This document shows, one piece after another, positions 4,334 through 27,436 of a DNA stretch of 64,000 nucleotides (its first letter is position 1; every line of letters starts with the position of its first letter). The notes beneath the pieces were generated by a model. That model was not told the DNA's origin and did no database searches. It was given only the letters and a program-made list of their open reading frames with translations. A program made the translations under genes and the position numbers. This stretch comes from Microbacterium mitrae (GTDB taxonomy: Bacteria; Actinomycetota; Actinomycetes; Actinomycetales; Microbacteriaceae), in NCBI RefSeq assembly GCF_008017445.1, contig NZ_VRSW01000002.1, positions 62,001 to 126,000 of the forward strand. Reading direction: 5' to 3'.

Positions 4334-5011
4334 TCATCCGGCCGGGGGCGATTCGTCGAGGCCGGGAAAGCTCCAGGTTCCATCGAGCACCTCGGCACGC
4401 GGGCGATAGAGGCGAACCAGATAGTTCCAACCCGGCATCACCGGAAGCACATTGGGATCACCATCACCGCCACCAAACGTGACGGTGAAGGTTCCGTCGT
4501 CATTGCGGGTGCCGACGATGTTGTCGATGCTGTAGGCGCCCAACGGGTTCTGCTCAAAGTAGCCGTCGGCGTTGTAGAGGGAGATTGACCAGAAGCCGTC
4601 AACCGGAACCTCGCCAATCGTGAGCGGGTAGCGGCCGACGGCGAGGTTGGGGCTGACCATGATGTACGACGCTTCGTGCTCGGGCAGCCCGCCCCACCCG
4701 AGCGCCGTGCCGATCAGGTGACGCACCGGGTCAACCGCGCTCTTGGTTCCGAAGCAGCGCTCCAGCCCGCCAAGGCCCGCACCCAGCTCCAACAGGGCGT
4801 TGCGCGTTGCGTCAAGCGACGCCTCGTCGTACGGCGGGAGCTCGAACGCCCGCGAAGACGCCGACGTCACCAGCAGCCGTCGTTGCAGGTCATTCACAAT
4901 CTCGATGTCGGCGGGGTCTTCGGGGTTCACCAGAATGCGCGCGGCGAGCATGACGTAATCGGTGTCGAACTCTGCAGTTGTCCAAAGCAACAGGTGGCGT
5001 TGCTTCTCAGG
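4334..5011 (-). pseudogene. 5'-truncated DUF1214 (DUF1254-type) protein gene
   Basis: The frame encodes only the C-terminal DUF1214 half of a DUF1254/DUF1214 protein: 'LLLWTTAEFDTDYV' through 'GEVPVDGFWSISLYNADGYF' and 'PVMPGWNYLVRLYRP' to the stop. Members usually have a longer N-terminal part, missing here. There is no ATG start; only TTG/CTG codons occur near 4990, with no ribosome site. Homologous sequence seems to stop at about 5010, exactly where the oppositely oriented SulP remnant begins, so both genes were probably cut by one deletion. Some DUF1214 proteins are short, so partial function cannot be excluded. Confidence 0.65.
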
Positions 5012-6022
5012 GTTGCCGATGTGCCGAACACCCTGCCGGGGCTGTCGCTCCCCGACATTTCGCTGATCCTGCCCCTCGTGCTGCCTGCGCTTTCTCTCGC
5101 TCTGGTCGCGCTCGTGCAGGGCGCCGCCATCAGTGGTTCCATTGCGAACCCCAACGGCCGCTACCCTGATCCGTCGGTGGACTTCAGCGGGCAGGGCTTC
5201 GCGAATATTGCGGCGGGGATGTTCCAGGGCATGCCGGTGGGCGGCTCAATGTCGGCCACCGCGCTCGTGCGGGCCGCGGGAGCGAAGAGTGCGCTCGCCA
5301 ACCTGATTGCCGCGGTCGTGATGGCGGCGACGATTCTGCTGCTGGGCTCGGTGATTGGCTACATCGCGATGCCCGCGCTCGCGGGATTGCTGATTCTCGT
5401 CGGGGTGCGCACGTTCAAGCTGCACGACGTGATGATGGTGTGGCGCACCGGCCCCATCCAAATCACCGTGCTCACGGTCACCTTCGTGCTGACGCTGCTC
5501 ATTCCGCTGCAGTACGCGGTGCTGAGTGGTGTGGGTCTCGCCGTCATCTTGCATGTCGCTCGGCAATCCAATCGCGTGACCGTCAAGCAGTGGGTGTTTG
5601 ACGAGGGCGAGGCGCTGCCCAACGAAATCGCGCCGCCAGCGGCCGTTGAAGCGGGCGCGGCGATCGTGTTGGTTCCATATGGCAGCCTATTTTTCGCCGC
5701 CGCGTCCGTGTTTGAGGCGCAACTGCCGGAGATCGCGAAAGATGCGCGGCGCGCGGTGGTGATCATCCGCTTGCGCGGCAAAGATGAATTGGGCAGCACC
5801 TTTATTCGCGTGCTGGCGCAGTACGCGACGCGCCTGCGCCGTTCTGGCGGCGCCCTGATGCTTGCCGGCGTGAGCGCAAAGGTCTACGAGCAACTCGCCG
5901 TGACCGGTGTGCTGTCGATCCTGGGCGCCGACAATGTGTTCATCGAACAACCCCGCGTCGGCATCGCGTTGCGTTCGGCGATGGATAAGGCGCAGCGCTG
6001 GCAGCGCGAAGGCGATGAGTAA
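5012..6022 (+). pseudogene. 5'-truncated SulP-family anion transporter gene
   Basis: Residues from 'VADVPNTLPGLSLPD' onward match the second half of SulP sulfate/bicarbonate transporters: the membrane segment with 'VQGAAISGSIANPNG', the 'FQGMPVGGSMSATALVRAAGAKS' region, three further helices, and a C-terminal STAS domain (about the last 115 residues). Full-length members have roughly 500-560 residues; some 200 N-terminal residues, including half the helices, are absent. The frame stays open upstream to 4676, but that part is the antisense of the DUF1214 remnant and resembles no transporter. No ribosome site precedes a start near 5012. Confidence 0.72.
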
Positions 6023-6082: not shown

Positions 6083-7240
6083 ATGGCGGCACTCGAGACC
6101 TCGGCCGATCGGGCTTCCACGTCATCGGAATCGCGGTCGCGGCTCGTCGCAAAGCGACTCGTGCTGCGTATCGTCTTCGCAGGCGTCGTCTTTGTCGGAT
6201 TGTGGCTGACCGTCACGCCTCCGGAAGGTGCCCGTGGACTACAGCTCCTGCTGGGAGTGGCTGCCATGCTTGCGGCCACGCTCAGTCATTGGGCCCCCGG
6301 CTCCGGTGTCCTGCTCGCGGTGGCCGCAACGACAACAGCCTGGGCGCTAAATTTGACAGCCGACCCGTTCCTTCTAGCTGGCGTCGGAGTGTTTACGAGT
6401 GCGGAGCGCCGCGGCACGCGCCGGTTTCCGTGGTGGTTGCTTGTCGCTGGGACGCTCCTGATGCTGGTCACTTTCGTGTTCGGTGGTCCGCCGAATTTGG
6501 GTGGATTCGAGGAGCGGATGCGCGGGGTTCTGCTCGGTGCGGTCGTGCTTGCGGTGTCATGGGTTTTGGGAGTTCGCACCCGTCAAGCGCAGCAGGTGGC
6601 TGAAGAACAAGTTCGAGCTGACGAGCGGTTACGGCTGGCCCGCGACGTACATGATGTTCTCTCGCACTCGCTCGGTGCTATTGGTGTGCGCGCGGGCGTG
6701 ACAGCGCACGTCGATGCGCTCGGCGAGCCAGAACTGCGGGAAGCGCTACGGGCGATCGAATCTCAGGCGCGGGATTCGCTGGCTGAATTGAAGCTACTGT
6801 TGCAACGCGAACGTGACGGCAAGCTCGAAACTGCCGCTGCCTCGTTGCCCCTCAGCGGCATTCTCCGCGATGTTTCCGCTACGGCGAAGCTGGCCGGGCT
6901 GGAAGTCGATCTCCACTACGACTCTGAAGTCGATCAGCTGCCCCCGTCGATCCGCACCACGGTGCATCGCGTCGCGCAGGAGGCGGTGACAAACGCCCTC
7001 CGTCACGCCGGAGCCACCCGGCTCACGCTCACTGTCACACACACTGCCACCGACGCGGTTGTTGCAGCGAGCGATGATGGCGTGGGTGTGTCTTCGGGCT
7101 TTTCGTACGGGCACGGTCTGACGGGGATGCGCGAGCGCGTCAGGCTGCTGGGAGGCGAACTCTGCATCGATTCCGGTCAGCCAGGGTTCCTCCTCACGGC
7201 GCGGATCCCGCTTCCGCAACACGAAGGAGCGGCACGATGA
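6083..7240 (+). CDS. NarL-type sensor histidine kinase
   Basis: Membrane sensor kinase of a two-component system. From the ATG at 6083, preceded by AGGGCGG, it has about 385 residues: a short cytoplasmic N-terminus, about five hydrophobic helices (roughly 25-170) with almost no extracellular domain, a HisKA_3 dimerisation helix with the phospho-acceptor His in 'RLARDVHDVLSHSLG', and an HATPase_c domain with 'VAQEAVTNALRHAGA' (N box), 'DDGVG' and 'GHGLTGMRERV'. A GTG at 6029 is an alternative start. Its stop overlaps the regulator start (ATGATG at 7237). Such sensors next to an ABC exporter usually sense cell-envelope stress or antibiotics (inference). Confidence 0.9.
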   Translation: MAALETSADRASTSSESRSRLVAKRLVLRIVFAGVVFVGLWLTVTPPEGARGLQLLLGVAAMLAATLSHWAPGSGVLLAVAATTTAWALNLTADPFLLAGVGVFTSAERRGTRRFPWWLLVAGTLLMLVTFVFGGPPNLGGFEERMRGVLLGAVVLAVSWVLGVRTRQAQQVAEEQVRADERLRLARDVHDVLSHSLGAIGVRAGVTAHVDALGEPELREALRAIESQARDSLAELKLLLQRERDGKLETAAASLPLSGILRDVSATAKLAGLEVDLHYDSEVDQLPPSIRTTVHRVAQEAVTNALRHAGATRLTLTVTHTATDAVVAASDDGVGVSSGFSYGHGLTGMRERVRLLGGELCIDSGQPGFLLTARIPLPQHEGAAR

Positions 7241-23595: not shown

Positions 23596-24228
23596 ATGGC
23601 TCGATCCTCACGTGTACTGCTGACCGCCTTTCTCGCCATGGTGACGGCCGTGTCTCTCACGGCTTGCGCACCCGCCACCGAGAGCGTCGGAGAGGGTGCG
23701 GCGCCGAGTTCTGCGCCGACGGCCGACGCGAGCCCAAACATTGAACCGGCCGACACCTTTCTCGAACGACACGGGCTCGCGGGTCTCAGCGCCACCGACG
23801 TGATTGAGACGCTTGAGGCGATGCCGGTCGCCGAGCGCCCCGCGAACCTCCTCGCCTCGGTGCGCCCGGATGAGGTGGTACTCACCGATGACGAGAACAA
23901 CCAGGCGAGCATGCCGCTCCCAGACGATCAGTTCTACGTCTCCATCGCGCCCTACGCGTCACAGACTCATGATTGCTTCTTTCACAGCCTGACCACGTGC
24001 CGTGGCGAGCTCGCGAACGAATCCGTGCAGATCACCATCACCGCCGCTGACGGCACCGAACTTGCCGCCGGAACCTACACGACCAACGACAACGGATTCG
24101 TCGGACTGTGGTTGCCGCGCGATATCGCCGGAACCATCACGATCACCGCGGGAGAGCGCACGGTCTCAGCACCGATCGCCACCGGAGTGGACGATCCGAC
24201 CTGCATCACCACGTTGCAGCTGACCTAG
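23596..24228 (+). CDS. cueP: CueP-family copper-binding lipoprotein
   Basis: 210 residues. The lipoprotein signal peptide ends in the lipobox 'LTAC' (Cys about 23), followed by a Ser/Ala-rich linker. The CueP domain shows 'FLERHGLAGLSATDVIETL', 'ASVRPDEVVLTDDEN', 'FYVSIAPYASQTHDCFFHSLTTCRGEL' and 'NGFVGLWLPRD', with a third conserved Cys near the end ('DDPTC'). In Salmonella, CueP is the periplasmic copper store that supports copper tolerance and delivers copper to SodC; here it would be anchored outside the membrane. Leaderless: TAGGAT (23584-23589) lies six bases before the ATG. No copper pump is adjacent. Confidence 0.9.
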   Translation: MARSSRVLLTAFLAMVTAVSLTACAPATESVGEGAAPSSAPTADASPNIEPADTFLERHGLAGLSATDVIETLEAMPVAERPANLLASVRPDEVVLTDDENNQASMPLPDDQFYVSIAPYASQTHDCFFHSLTTCRGELANESVQITITAADGTELAAGTYTTNDNGFVGLWLPRDIAGTITITAGERTVSAPIATGVDDPTCITTLQLT

Positions 24229-24295: not shown

Positions 24296-25234
24296 CTATG
24301 CCCGATCGGCCTTGCTAACCGCGTCGGTCAGCGCCTGCACCTGTGCGCGGAGTGCCGCGAGCTCCCGCATCACCTCAGACTCACCAAACGTGACGTGATG
24401 GGAGTGTTCGTGCCTCTCGCTGGGCACAATGCCTTCACCCGCCGCCATTCCGTTTGCGGCTGCGGACGCGCCCGCCACAGCCGTGGTTCCGCGGCGCTCG
24501 GCGTCATGCTCCTCGGCGGCGTGTTCGTTGCTGGCGTCGAGCCCCTGCATCGCATCGACGATGACGGCTATAAAGAGGTTGAGCACCGTGAGGGCGCTGA
24601 TGAGCACGAACGGAACGAAGAACGCCGGCGCCCACGGGTCAACGGTCATGATCCTGCGCACCTGATCAGACCAGCCATCGAGCGTCATGATTTGAAAGAG
24701 CGAGAACAGGGTCGAGCCCAGATCACCGTACTCGGCCGGGAAGTTCTTACCGAACAGCATCGTCGCCATGACCGCGCCGACGTAGAAAATGATGCCCAGC
24801 AGCGCGGCGATCGAAGCGATGCCGGGTACGGCCCGAACCAATGCATCGACGACGCGGCGCAGCGACGGCACGATCGAAATCAGGCGCAACACGCGCAACA
24901 CGCGCAGTGCGCGCAACACTGCGAGGCCATCCGCCCCGGGAATCAGGGCGATGCCGACGATCACGAAGTCGAACACGTTCCACGCGCTGCGGAAGAAGCC
25001 GAGCCCCTGGCCATACAGCTTGAGGGCGATTTCGACGATAAAGATCCACAGGCAGATCTTGTCGAGGAGGTGCAGTGTCGCCCCATAGTTCTGCATGAGG
25101 GAGTGCACCGTCTCCAAGCCGAGCACGATGGCGTTGATGACGATCACCACAAGGATCACGTTTTGAACGGTTTTCGATGTCACAAAGTCGTTGACTGACT
25201 TGCGGCTGTACCACGGCGCGCGTGATGACGTCAT
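24296..25234 (-). CDS. Voltage-gated cation channel (BacNav/Cav type) with TLDGWSD filter
   Basis: 312 residues, one six-helix subunit of a tetrameric channel. S1-S3 occupy about 20-105. S4 carries regularly spaced arginines ('LRALRVLRVLRLISIVPSLRR'), followed by the S4-S5 linker and S5. The pore helix and filter read 'FQIMTLDGWSD', and S6 is 'ISALTVLNLFIAVIVDAMQ'. The C-terminus has a His-rich linker ('ERHEHSHHV') and a short coiled coil ('ELAALRAQVQALTDAV') as in NaChBac relatives. The filter differs from the sodium-type TLESWS by Asp-Gly plus a following Asp, which favours calcium (see findings). Confidence 0.9.
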   Translation of the reverse strand: MTSSRAPWYSRKSVNDFVTSKTVQNVILVVIVINAIVLGLETVHSLMQNYGATLHLLDKICLWIFIVEIALKLYGQGLGFFRSAWNVFDFVIVGIALIPGADGLAVLRALRVLRVLRLISIVPSLRRVVDALVRAVPGIASIAALLGIIFYVGAVMATMLFGKNFPAEYGDLGSTLFSLFQIMTLDGWSDQVRRIMTVDPWAPAFFVPFVLISALTVLNLFIAVIVDAMQGLDASNEHAAEEHDAERRGTTAVAGASAAANGMAAGEGIVPSERHEHSHHVTFGESEVMRELAALRAQVQALTDAVSKADRA

Positions 25235-26240: not shown

Positions 26241-26714
26241 ATGACCGACCTCTCCGCGCGCAGCCAGCGCGTTGCCGACCAGCTTCGCGCCGCCGGCGTC
26301 ACCTCAAATATCGTCACCCTGCCCGACTCTGCTGCCACCGCGGCGCTCGCCGCCGCAGCACTCGGTACCGAGGTGGGAGCCATCGCCAACAGCCTCGTTT
26401 TCGTGGCCGACGACCAGCCGCTGCTGGTGATGACCAGCGGCGCACACCGGGTCGACACCGCTCTGCTGGCCGAACGCCTCGGCAAGCAACGCATCGTGCG
26501 GGCGCGGCCAGAACAGGTGGTAGCCGCGACCGGTCAGGTCATTGGTGGGGTTGCTCCCGTGGGTCATCCATCGCACATCGAGACCGTCATTGACGAGACG
26601 CTCGCGCAGTTCGACGAACTGTGGGCGGCGGACGGCACCGCGCACACCGTCTTTCCGCTCACTTTCGACGAACTCGTCGCCGTGACCGGTGGTTCCGTTC
26701 TCGCCGTGAGCTAG
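26241..26714 (+). CDS. YbaK/ProX-type aminoacyl-tRNA deacylase
   Basis: 157 residues. The YbaK/INS fold is shown by 'GTEVGAIANSLVFVADDQPLLVMTSGAHRVDTALLAERLG' with the conserved Lys region 'GKQRIVRARPEQV', then 'TGQVIGGVAPVGHP' and the terminal 'HTVFPLTFDELVAVTGGSVLAVS'. Such proteins hydrolyse mis-charged Cys- or Ala-tRNA(Pro). The start follows the methyltransferase gene by one base. Its last ~26 codons and the following 3' flank are repeated twice more downstream without the rest of the gene. Confidence 0.88.
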   Translation: MTDLSARSQRVADQLRAAGVTSNIVTLPDSAATAALAAAALGTEVGAIANSLVFVADDQPLLVMTSGAHRVDTALLAERLGKQRIVRARPEQVVAATGQVIGGVAPVGHPSHIETVIDETLAQFDELWAADGTAHTVFPLTFDELVAVTGGSVLAVS

Positions 26715-26756
26715 TCGGTGGTGCGGTTCGGCGCTTCCGGCCGCCACGTGAGGGAA

Positions 26757-26816
26757 GGAGATTACGCCGAGGAACGGATAATTGGGCGATATCGTCCTGC
26801 TGTCGGCGTGATCTCC
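26757..26816. repeat. Hairpin of tandem unit 1
   Basis: GGAGATTACGCCG pairs with CGGCGTGATCTCC (one wobble) around an inner region. It follows the deacylase stop by about 45 bases and could act as a transcription stop or mRNA-protecting structure. Confidence 0.7.
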
Positions 26817-27027
26817 TGCTGCCGCGTTTGGTTCGCACGCCGGGTAGGGGCGAGCTGGGCGTTTGGAACCAGGGGTGCGGAACCGGGGGTGTGGAACCGT
26901 GCACACCGCTTTCCGCTCACGTTCGACGAACTCGTCACCGTCGCCGGTGGTTCCGTTCTCGCCGTGAAACAGTCGGTGACGCGGTTCGGTGACGCGCTTC
27001 GACGCTTCTGGCCAACACGCGAGGGAA

Positions 27028-27087
27028 GGAGATTACGCCGAGGGACGGAGAATTGGGCGATACCGTCCTGCTGCCGGCGTAATCTCC
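27028..27087. repeat. Hairpin of tandem unit 2 (perfect outer stem)
   Basis: GGAGATTACGCCG pairs perfectly with CGGCGTAATCTCC, and an inner GGACGG/CCGTCC stem is also perfect. Compared with unit 1, one arm has changed from GTGATC to GTAATC, which restores a Watson-Crick pair. Confidence 0.72.
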
Positions 27088-27286
27088 TGCTGCCGCGTTG
27101 GGTTCGCACGCCGGGGAGGGGCGAGCTGCGGGTATGGAACTGGGGGTGCGGAACCTGGTGCGTGAAACCGCATGCACCGCTGTTCCGCTCACTTTCGACG
27201 AACTCGTCGCCGTGACCGGTGGTTCCGTTCTCGCCGTGAACTAGTCGGTGACGCGGTTCGGGGCTTCTGGCCGCCACGTGAGGGAA

Positions 27287-27346
27287 GGAGATTACGCCGG
27301 GGGACGGAATCCTGGGCGATATCGCCCTGCTGTCGGCGTGATCTCC
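27287..27346. repeat. Hairpin of tandem unit 3
   Basis: GGAGATTACGCCG / CGGCGTGATCTCC with an inner GGGACGG..CGCCC region; the outer stem is as in unit 1. Confidence 0.7.
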
Positions 27347-27436
27347 TGCTGCCGCGTTTGGTTCGCACGCCGGGTAGGGGCGAGCTGGGGGTATGGAACC
27401 AGGGTGCGGAACCTCGTGTGCGGAACCAGGGTGTTG

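Follow-up and report, generated by a model that had tools for sequence, protein, structure and literature searches.

CavMr of Meiothermus ruber has been called 'the only identified prokaryotic Cav' in a 2026 paper (PMC12919392). Its selectivity filter, TLEGWVD, gives a PCa/PNa of 218, and the glycine at position 4 (Gly4) is a tested determinant of this preference. The CavMr mutants G4S, G4D, V6T and D7M have PCa/PNa values of 11.9, 7.7, 40.1 and 144, respectively, and both G4S and V6T allow K+ and Cs+ to permeate (PMC7041947). NavPp, with the filter TLEDWTD, has a PCa/PNa of only 0.31 that rises to 41.4 in its D4G mutant (PMC7041947). The filter TLEGWTD has therefore been recorded on two backbones, as CavMr-V6T and as NavPp-D4G, with PK/PNa values of 0.69 and 0.81 (PMC7041947 Table 1). 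NavPp carrying TLEDWSD remains blocked by Ca2+, and in the excerpts of that study used here exchanging the filters of CavMr and NavAb gives no current in either direction (PMC7041947).

The same glycine does not have this effect in NavAb. The S178G mutant, which combines Gly4 with Glu3 and Met7, has a PCa/PNa below 0.01 and prefers Li+ (PLi/PNa 2.18), and M181A mutants are non-selective with approximately 10-fold Ca2+ selectivity (PMC12919392). A natural Asp at position 3 occurs in NsvBa of Bacillus alcalophilus (TLDSWGSG), a non-selective channel that is 61% identical to NaChBac and becomes Na+-selective through D186E alone; an LDDWADG filter placed in NsvBa reaches a PCa/PNa of only about 30, and monovalent ions still permeate (PMC4225499). 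Engineered CavAb and CaChBac carry TLDDW(S/A)D, and the filters of CatSper3 and CatSper4 are TVDGWTD and TQDGWVD (PMC7041947). A 2023 classification predicts that one-domain channels with Gly4 and Asp or Glu at position 3 are Ca2+-selective, and in the excerpts consulted it describes a disulfide-bearing extension of the P2-S6 loop for CavMr only (PMC10120453).

The window, which is the whole 64,000-nucleotide stretch of Microbacterium mitrae DNA that was analyzed, encodes a single-domain voltage-gated-type cation channel with a related filter. Its reading frame begins with ATG, contains no internal stop and has the following features.

24296-25234, minus strand: voltage-gated cation channel, 312 aa (ORF, Pfam Ion_trans, NavMs phmmer match, Foldseek)
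24872-24922, minus strand: S4 voltage-sensor helix, residues 105-121, with Arg108/111/114/117 (alignment, model)
24686-24721, minus strand: P1 pore helix, residues 172-183, LGSTLFSLFQIM (AlphaFold2 model)
24665-24685, minus strand: selectivity filter TLDGWSD, residues 184-190 (translation, alignments)
24641-24673, minus strand: P2 helix, residues 188-198, WSDQVRRIMTV (AlphaFold2 model, alignment)
24539-24631, minus strand: S6 pore-lining helix, residues 202-232, which runs on into the neck helix (AlphaFold2 model)
24302-24382, minus strand: C-terminal helix, residues 285-311, a presumed tetramerizing coiled coil (AlphaFold2)

The original prediction, made from sequence, placed a voltage-gated channel with a TLDGWSD filter at 24652-24720, and the reading frame, the filter position and the Ion_trans match all agree with it. 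The Pfam profile Ion_trans (PF00520) matches with E = 6e-45 and 153.8 bits (cut-off 25), and residues 22-232 cover nearly the whole profile. NavMs is the best PDB sequence match (phmmer E = 2e-72, 247 bits), and wild-type NavAb and the CavAb entries score about 203 and 208 bits. An AlphaFold2 model from 49 aligned sequences (mean pLDDT 87.4, pTM 0.65) shows the six transmembrane segments, P1, P2, a long S6-neck and the C terminus as helices; pLDDT is mostly below 50 over residues 265-282, and block means over residues 281-312 are 67, 93, 92 and 80. Among the best 50 of 557 Foldseek matches (E <= 10), the titles are those of NavMs, NavAb and CavAb entries with four exceptions, a single entry called just 'HypoPP mutant' and three that mention only the Ca2+ selectivity of a calcium channel. 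NavMs and NavAb are thus the closest solved single-domain channels by both sequence and fold, and the profile, model and fold matches agree on a single Ion_trans domain with an S1-S4 sensor and an S5-P-S6 pore. As in BacNavs, S4 has an Arg at every third residue, with acidic counter-charges in S2 and S3 (E68, D89). R108, R114, R117, E68 and D89 are invariant and R111 is nearly so in the 49 aligned rows, which include the window channel. By analogy with BacNavs, the C-terminal helix would form a coiled coil. The genome has one copy of this channel in a protein search; a genome profile search also finds a second, weaker Ion_trans gene on another contig (G000:C4:49126-49416, L140; 39.6 bits) that covers the pore half only.

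The filter consists of T184, L185, D186, G187, W188, S189 and D190. As described in the original prediction, it departs from TLESWS/A at D186, G187 and D190. Residues 184-187 sit between the P1 and P2 helices in the model, as in BacNavs, and P2 begins at Trp188, so that Asp190 lies at Trp+2, the position of Asp7 in CavMr. The segment after Trp is one residue shorter than in NavAb, NavMs and NaChBac, and the Gly of TLESWxxG is absent. This short form occurs in most relatives with Asp3 (L004, L008 and L044 are exceptions), in the AnclNav-like L126 and L128, and in 87 of the 109 rows of our wider tree. The window sequence TLDGWSD-Q is therefore altered from TLESWxxG at positions 3, 4 and 7 and lacks Gly8, which argues against a Na+-channel label and not against a BacNav scaffold. 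Neither TLDGWSD nor any of TGDGWSD, TGDDWAN, TLDNWSV, TLDNWSI, TTENWPD and TLDSWSD was found in PMC full text under CC0, CC BY or CC BY-SA licences, a search that reaches filters in text and passes over those printed only in figures.

Among described channels, NavMs and NavAb share the single-domain six-helix scaffold with the window channel and differ from it in having TLESWSM and the Gly after position 7. CavMr shares the acid at position 3, Gly4 and Asp7 (here D186, G187 and D190). The original prediction saw the filter as the outer Asp of CavAb joined to the Gly of CavMr. The role of this Gly in CavMr is borne out by the Gly4 mutants (PMC7041947), but the combination is not as described, since TLEGWVD already contains the outer Asp and CavMr-D7M remains strongly Ca2+-selective (PMC7041947). 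What sets TLDGWSD apart from the CavMr filter is Asp rather than Glu at position 3 and Ser rather than Val at position 6, and V6T lowers the PCa/PNa of CavMr from 218 to 40 (PMC7041947). The disulfide-bearing loop extension is also absent, with Cys61 the sole cysteine in the sequence and a three-residue linker joining P2 to S6 in the model. CavAb and CaChBac share Asp3 and Asp7, and CavAb is also built on a NavAb-type scaffold, whereas the window channel is native and has Gly4 in place of Asp4. NsvBa likewise has a natural Asp3 in a BacNav, but it has Ser4, lacks an acid at position 7 and retains Gly8. CatSper3 and CatSper4, compared by filter motif alone, share the pattern xxDGWxD and are subunits of a eukaryotic heterotetramer.

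Two trees, both with the filter columns excluded, place the window channel among sodium-channel relatives. The first has 69 rows (IQ-TREE, LG+C20+F+G4), and the second has 109 rows from a quick search with SH-aLRT support only. In the first tree its sister is L002 (support 100/99), which has the filter TLDNWSV and is 72% identical to it over 217 tree columns. Both fall within a 23-row actinobacterial clade (98/98) with the filters TLESWSM, TLESWSA, TLDSWxx, TLSSWET, TLDNWSx and TLDGWSD. A 54-row group (98/91) unites this clade with NavAb and NavMs and leaves NaChBac outside. In the second tree the window channel and this actinobacterial clade again group with NavAb and NavMs (33 rows, SH-aLRT 97).

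These positions bear on whether the window channel is an AnclNav like CavMr. In the trees CavMr and NavPp are represented by AnclNav-like stand-ins chosen by filter, L126 (TLEGWIE) and L128 (TLEDWVD), which in the first tree are separated from the window channel by NaChBac; a clade uniting them with it is rejected (p-AU = 7e-37). L128 scores higher with NaChBac (179 bits) than with NavMs (141 bits), in agreement with the placement of AnclNavs near the Bacillus group (PMC7041947). No chain named CavMr occurs among the 60 best PDB matches for L128, a weak check given the generic molecule names there. An AnclNav origin is therefore rejected on tree position with these stand-ins, and the window channel is NavAb-like as far as the trees reach.

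The combination of Gly4 with an acid at position 7 appears in 12 of the 69 rows of the first tree with at least 6 changes. In the second tree it appears in 20 of the 109 rows with at least 14 changes, and DGWSD appears in 5 of the 109 with at least 4; these counts are soft, as support is below 80 on 41 of the 106 inner branches. The AU tests compare the window channel with three Gly4/acid7 groups that were named by filter and chosen after seeing the tree, and they reject its union with a seven-row xxDGWxD/E clade (p = 0.0045), with the TLEGWSD channel of Pseudovibrio (L092, p = 0.0002) and, in the second tree, with four TGDGWSD rows (p-AU = 0.0003); rows such as L070, L124, L143, L169 and L172 lie outside these groups. 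The actinomycete TGDGWSD channels (e.g., L141, L145, L150 and L151) have an identical D-G-W-S-D and belong to a separate 51-row group in the second tree (SH-aLRT 96). A single origin of all DGWxD filters is thus not supported by these tests, and related bacteria seem to have acquired such filters several times. We conclude from the trees that Gly4 and Asp7 of the window channel arose separately, on the scaffold of a Na+ channel. The TLDNWSV filter of the sister channel shows that this pair is not old in the window lineage, or else that it was lost in L002. The filters within the clade may be seen as a series that runs from TLESWSM (Na+-selective) through TLDSW and TLDNW (predicted non-selective) to TLDGWSD (predicted Ca2+-preferring), a reading built from sequence and published mutants rather than from reconstructed ancestral states.

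Homologues were surveyed in overlapping, non-additive samples, with cut-offs of E = 1e-10 for family and genus, 1e-20 for order and phylum, and 1e-30 for class. Matches occur in 23 of 299 family genomes at 25 places, and the filter could be read in 24; Trp5 is present in 15 of these, with TLESWSM in 7 and Gly4 plus acid7 in 4, including the window channel. Only 2 of 99 genus genomes match, one of them the window's own. The other match (L026) has the filter NGDGWGE and belongs to a different clade. The order, phylum and class searches scored at most five candidates per genome, so that their counts are lower bounds. At least 19 of 396 order genomes match, and all 19 filters read contain Trp, with one TLESWSM and five Gly4 plus acid7, including the window channel. 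At least 15 of 396 phylum genomes match, and the 15 filters read include five with Trp and two with Gly4 plus acid7, the window channel again counted. The class sample has matches in at least 77 of 394 actinomycete genomes at 100 places, with all 100 filters read: Trp5 occurs in 68, Gly4 in 23 and Gly4 with Asp or Glu at position 7 in 16, of which 13 also have Asp3. DGWSD accounts for 8 of the 100 (seven TGDGWSD and the window channel), and TLESWSM for none. Other filters in this sample are TTENWPD (12), TGDDWAN (7), TTEDWPD (5) and TVENWPQ (4).

Rarity of native prokaryotic Ca2+ channels, a part of the original prediction, holds for characterized channels, where the excerpted 2026 text names CavMr alone (PMC12919392), but not for sequence, since 16 of the 68 Trp-bearing class homologues have Gly4 with an acid at position 7. 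Cav-like filters are not rare in genomes; 'rare' fits recordings. The actinobacterial filter survey that had been proposed as a check also yields a set of actinomycete candidates with Cav-like filters for expression and recording. The window channel is a good candidate for a native Ca2+ channel by its filter, without being alone in sequence or near CavMr by descent within the reach of the tree.

Other searches return further relatives. In a scan of GTDB contigs, 73 of the best 80 named loci have a TLESWSM channel and are mostly alphaproteobacterial. Named relatives with Asp3 are Cryobacterium sp. ACE_ACT10 (TLDNWSV, on the contig of the sister L002), Occultella glacieicola (TLDNWSI) and Xylanimonas oleitrophica (TLDSWTS). 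Matches occur in 1 of 8 genomes from the genus of the closest relative and in 10 of 24 from the family of the TLDNWS channels, all ten at loci that the survey already contained. Plasmid records match in 33 of 72,556 cases, none covering more than 80% of the query; one is L232, of Nonomuraea gerenzanensis. L232 has TGDDWGN, as do L149 and L168, and the similar TGDDWAN occurs in L163, L174, L182, L187 and L189. These native filters share Asp3 and Asp4 with engineered CavAb, whose exact filter is TLDDWSN.

Several arrangements of channel genes came to light in the survey. Pseudovibrio ascidiaceicola (L092) has adjacent paralogues at 5001-5822 and 6295-7155 with the filters TLEGWSD and TLESWSM; they are tree sisters (100/98) and 68% identical over 266 aligned positions, a filter swap made by nature. 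The metagenome-assembled Actinophytocola sp. isolate Dino_bin25 (L067, 4992-7431) has three head-to-tail channel genes separated by a few to about 20 bases, two with the filter TGEAWPD and one with an unusual T-QGWPP, and their products might assemble into a heteromeric channel. A set of six grouped channels (L161, L165, L167, L173, L178 and L184) has the filter (T/I)GDGGLGD, with a residue inserted and no Trp5. All 23 class-sample genomes with two matches fall in one family (f105), where TGDxWxx or TADxWxx is often paired with a TTENWPD- or TVENWPQ-like filter. One of the 16 Gly4 plus acid7 channels (L148) has an in-frame TGA.

By its sequence, the window channel joins a Cav-like filter to the scaffold of a Na+ channel, and the reading that we favor, with about even confidence, is a depolarization-activated, Ca2+-preferring and moderately selective channel, for which analogy with recorded channels predicts a PCa/PNa of about 10-50 and weak Na+/K+ discrimination. 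It would be a homotetramer on the NavAb/NavMs scaffold, in which S1-S4 sense voltage by the four S4 arginines and the pore is built from the S5-P1-filter-P2-S6 segments of all four subunits. Gly187 would remove the Ser side chain from the filter mouth, widening it and exposing the ring of Asp186 at the high-field-strength site, and Asp190 would replace the Met that sorts monovalent from divalent ions in NavAb and add a second acidic ring. Together, the widening and the Asp190 ring may shift the filter from Na+-selective to Ca2+-preferring. Asp3, Gly4, Asp7, the lack of a Met181 equivalent and the short entry to P2 make a Ca2+-preferring channel with poor Na+/K+ discrimination the simplest prediction. 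TLEGWTD, with a PCa/PNa of about 40 on two backbones, is two conservative changes from TLDGWSD, the CatSper3 and CatSper4 filters are also close, and the length after Trp matches the AnclNav-like L126 and L128 and not NavAb. Against the Ca2+-preferring reading, NavPp with TLEDWSD, which likewise has Ser6 and Asp7, stays Ca2+-blocked (PMC7041947), the CavMr loop extension is missing, and the sister L002 has neither Gly4 nor Asp7. The low PCa/PNa of NavAb S178G and the currentless CavMr/NavAb swaps indicate that filter effects do not transfer simply across backbones, so that a non-selective channel stays a serious rival. In this tentative alternative, to which we give clearly less weight, Asp3 relaxes selectivity for Na+, K+ and Ca2+ as in NsvBa, without Gly4 and Asp7 bringing it back in this scaffold. 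NsvBa combines Asp3 with Ser4, is non-selective and is converted to Na+ selectivity by D186E alone (PMC4225499). Asp3 is common to the nearest kin of the window channel with TLDSW and TLDNW filters, and K+ and Cs+ pass through two CavMr mutants (PMC7041947). However, NsvBa lacks both Gly4 and a position-7 acid, and all four Gly4 plus Asp7 constructs with measurements in the excerpts of PMC7041947 (CavMr, CavMr-V6T, NavPp-Mr and NavPp-D4G) prefer Ca2+, with PCa/PNa values of 40-218.

It is improbable that the window channel conducts Na+ and is blocked by external Ca2+ like NavPp, whose three filter acids and PCa/PNa of 0.31 show that an acid-rich filter does not guarantee Ca2+ permeation (PMC7041947). 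NavPp has Asp4, its D4G mutant prefers Ca2+ (PMC7041947), and the window channel has Gly4. There is a very slight chance that the gene is relaxed or degenerating, sporadic and perhaps recently acquired, with a filter that drifts without function. The two genus matches (E = 1e-10), in different clades, are consistent with such a history, but the intact 312-aa frame, the sensor charges and pore residues conserved over 49 rows and the predicted C-terminal helix argue against it. The channel bears on why one glycine makes CavMr but not NavAb Ca2+-selective, and it comes with natural controls: a NavAb-like backbone that carries Gly4 and Asp7, a TLDNWSV sister and TLESWSM cousins. A broader reading, possible although we lean against it, is that actinomycetes repeatedly made native Ca2+ channels from a Na+-channel scaffold. 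The window channel would be one independent case, since TLESWSM, the Asp3 filters TLDSW and TLDNW, and TLDGWSD all occur in its clade, and the TGDGWSD, TGDDWAN/TGDDWGN and xxDGWxD channels would be others. Native prokaryotic Cavs would then be common and overlooked because recordings exist for just one.

Five of the six proteins flanking the channel could be assigned to families (luciferase-like monooxygenase, CueP copper-binding protein, methyltransferase, aminoacyl-tRNA editing domain and IclR regulator) and one has none in the family search. No calcium link is present among the six, and gene neighborhood was consequently dropped as a functional clue. The CueP-like periplasmic copper-binding protein (23596-24228, plus strand, E = 9.5e-54) is convergent with the channel gene. 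Beside the tRNA-editing-domain gene, positions 26637-27404 hold a 238-bp unit with 26-bp subrepeats in three direct copies; relative to the first, the other two show 67% and 92% identity.
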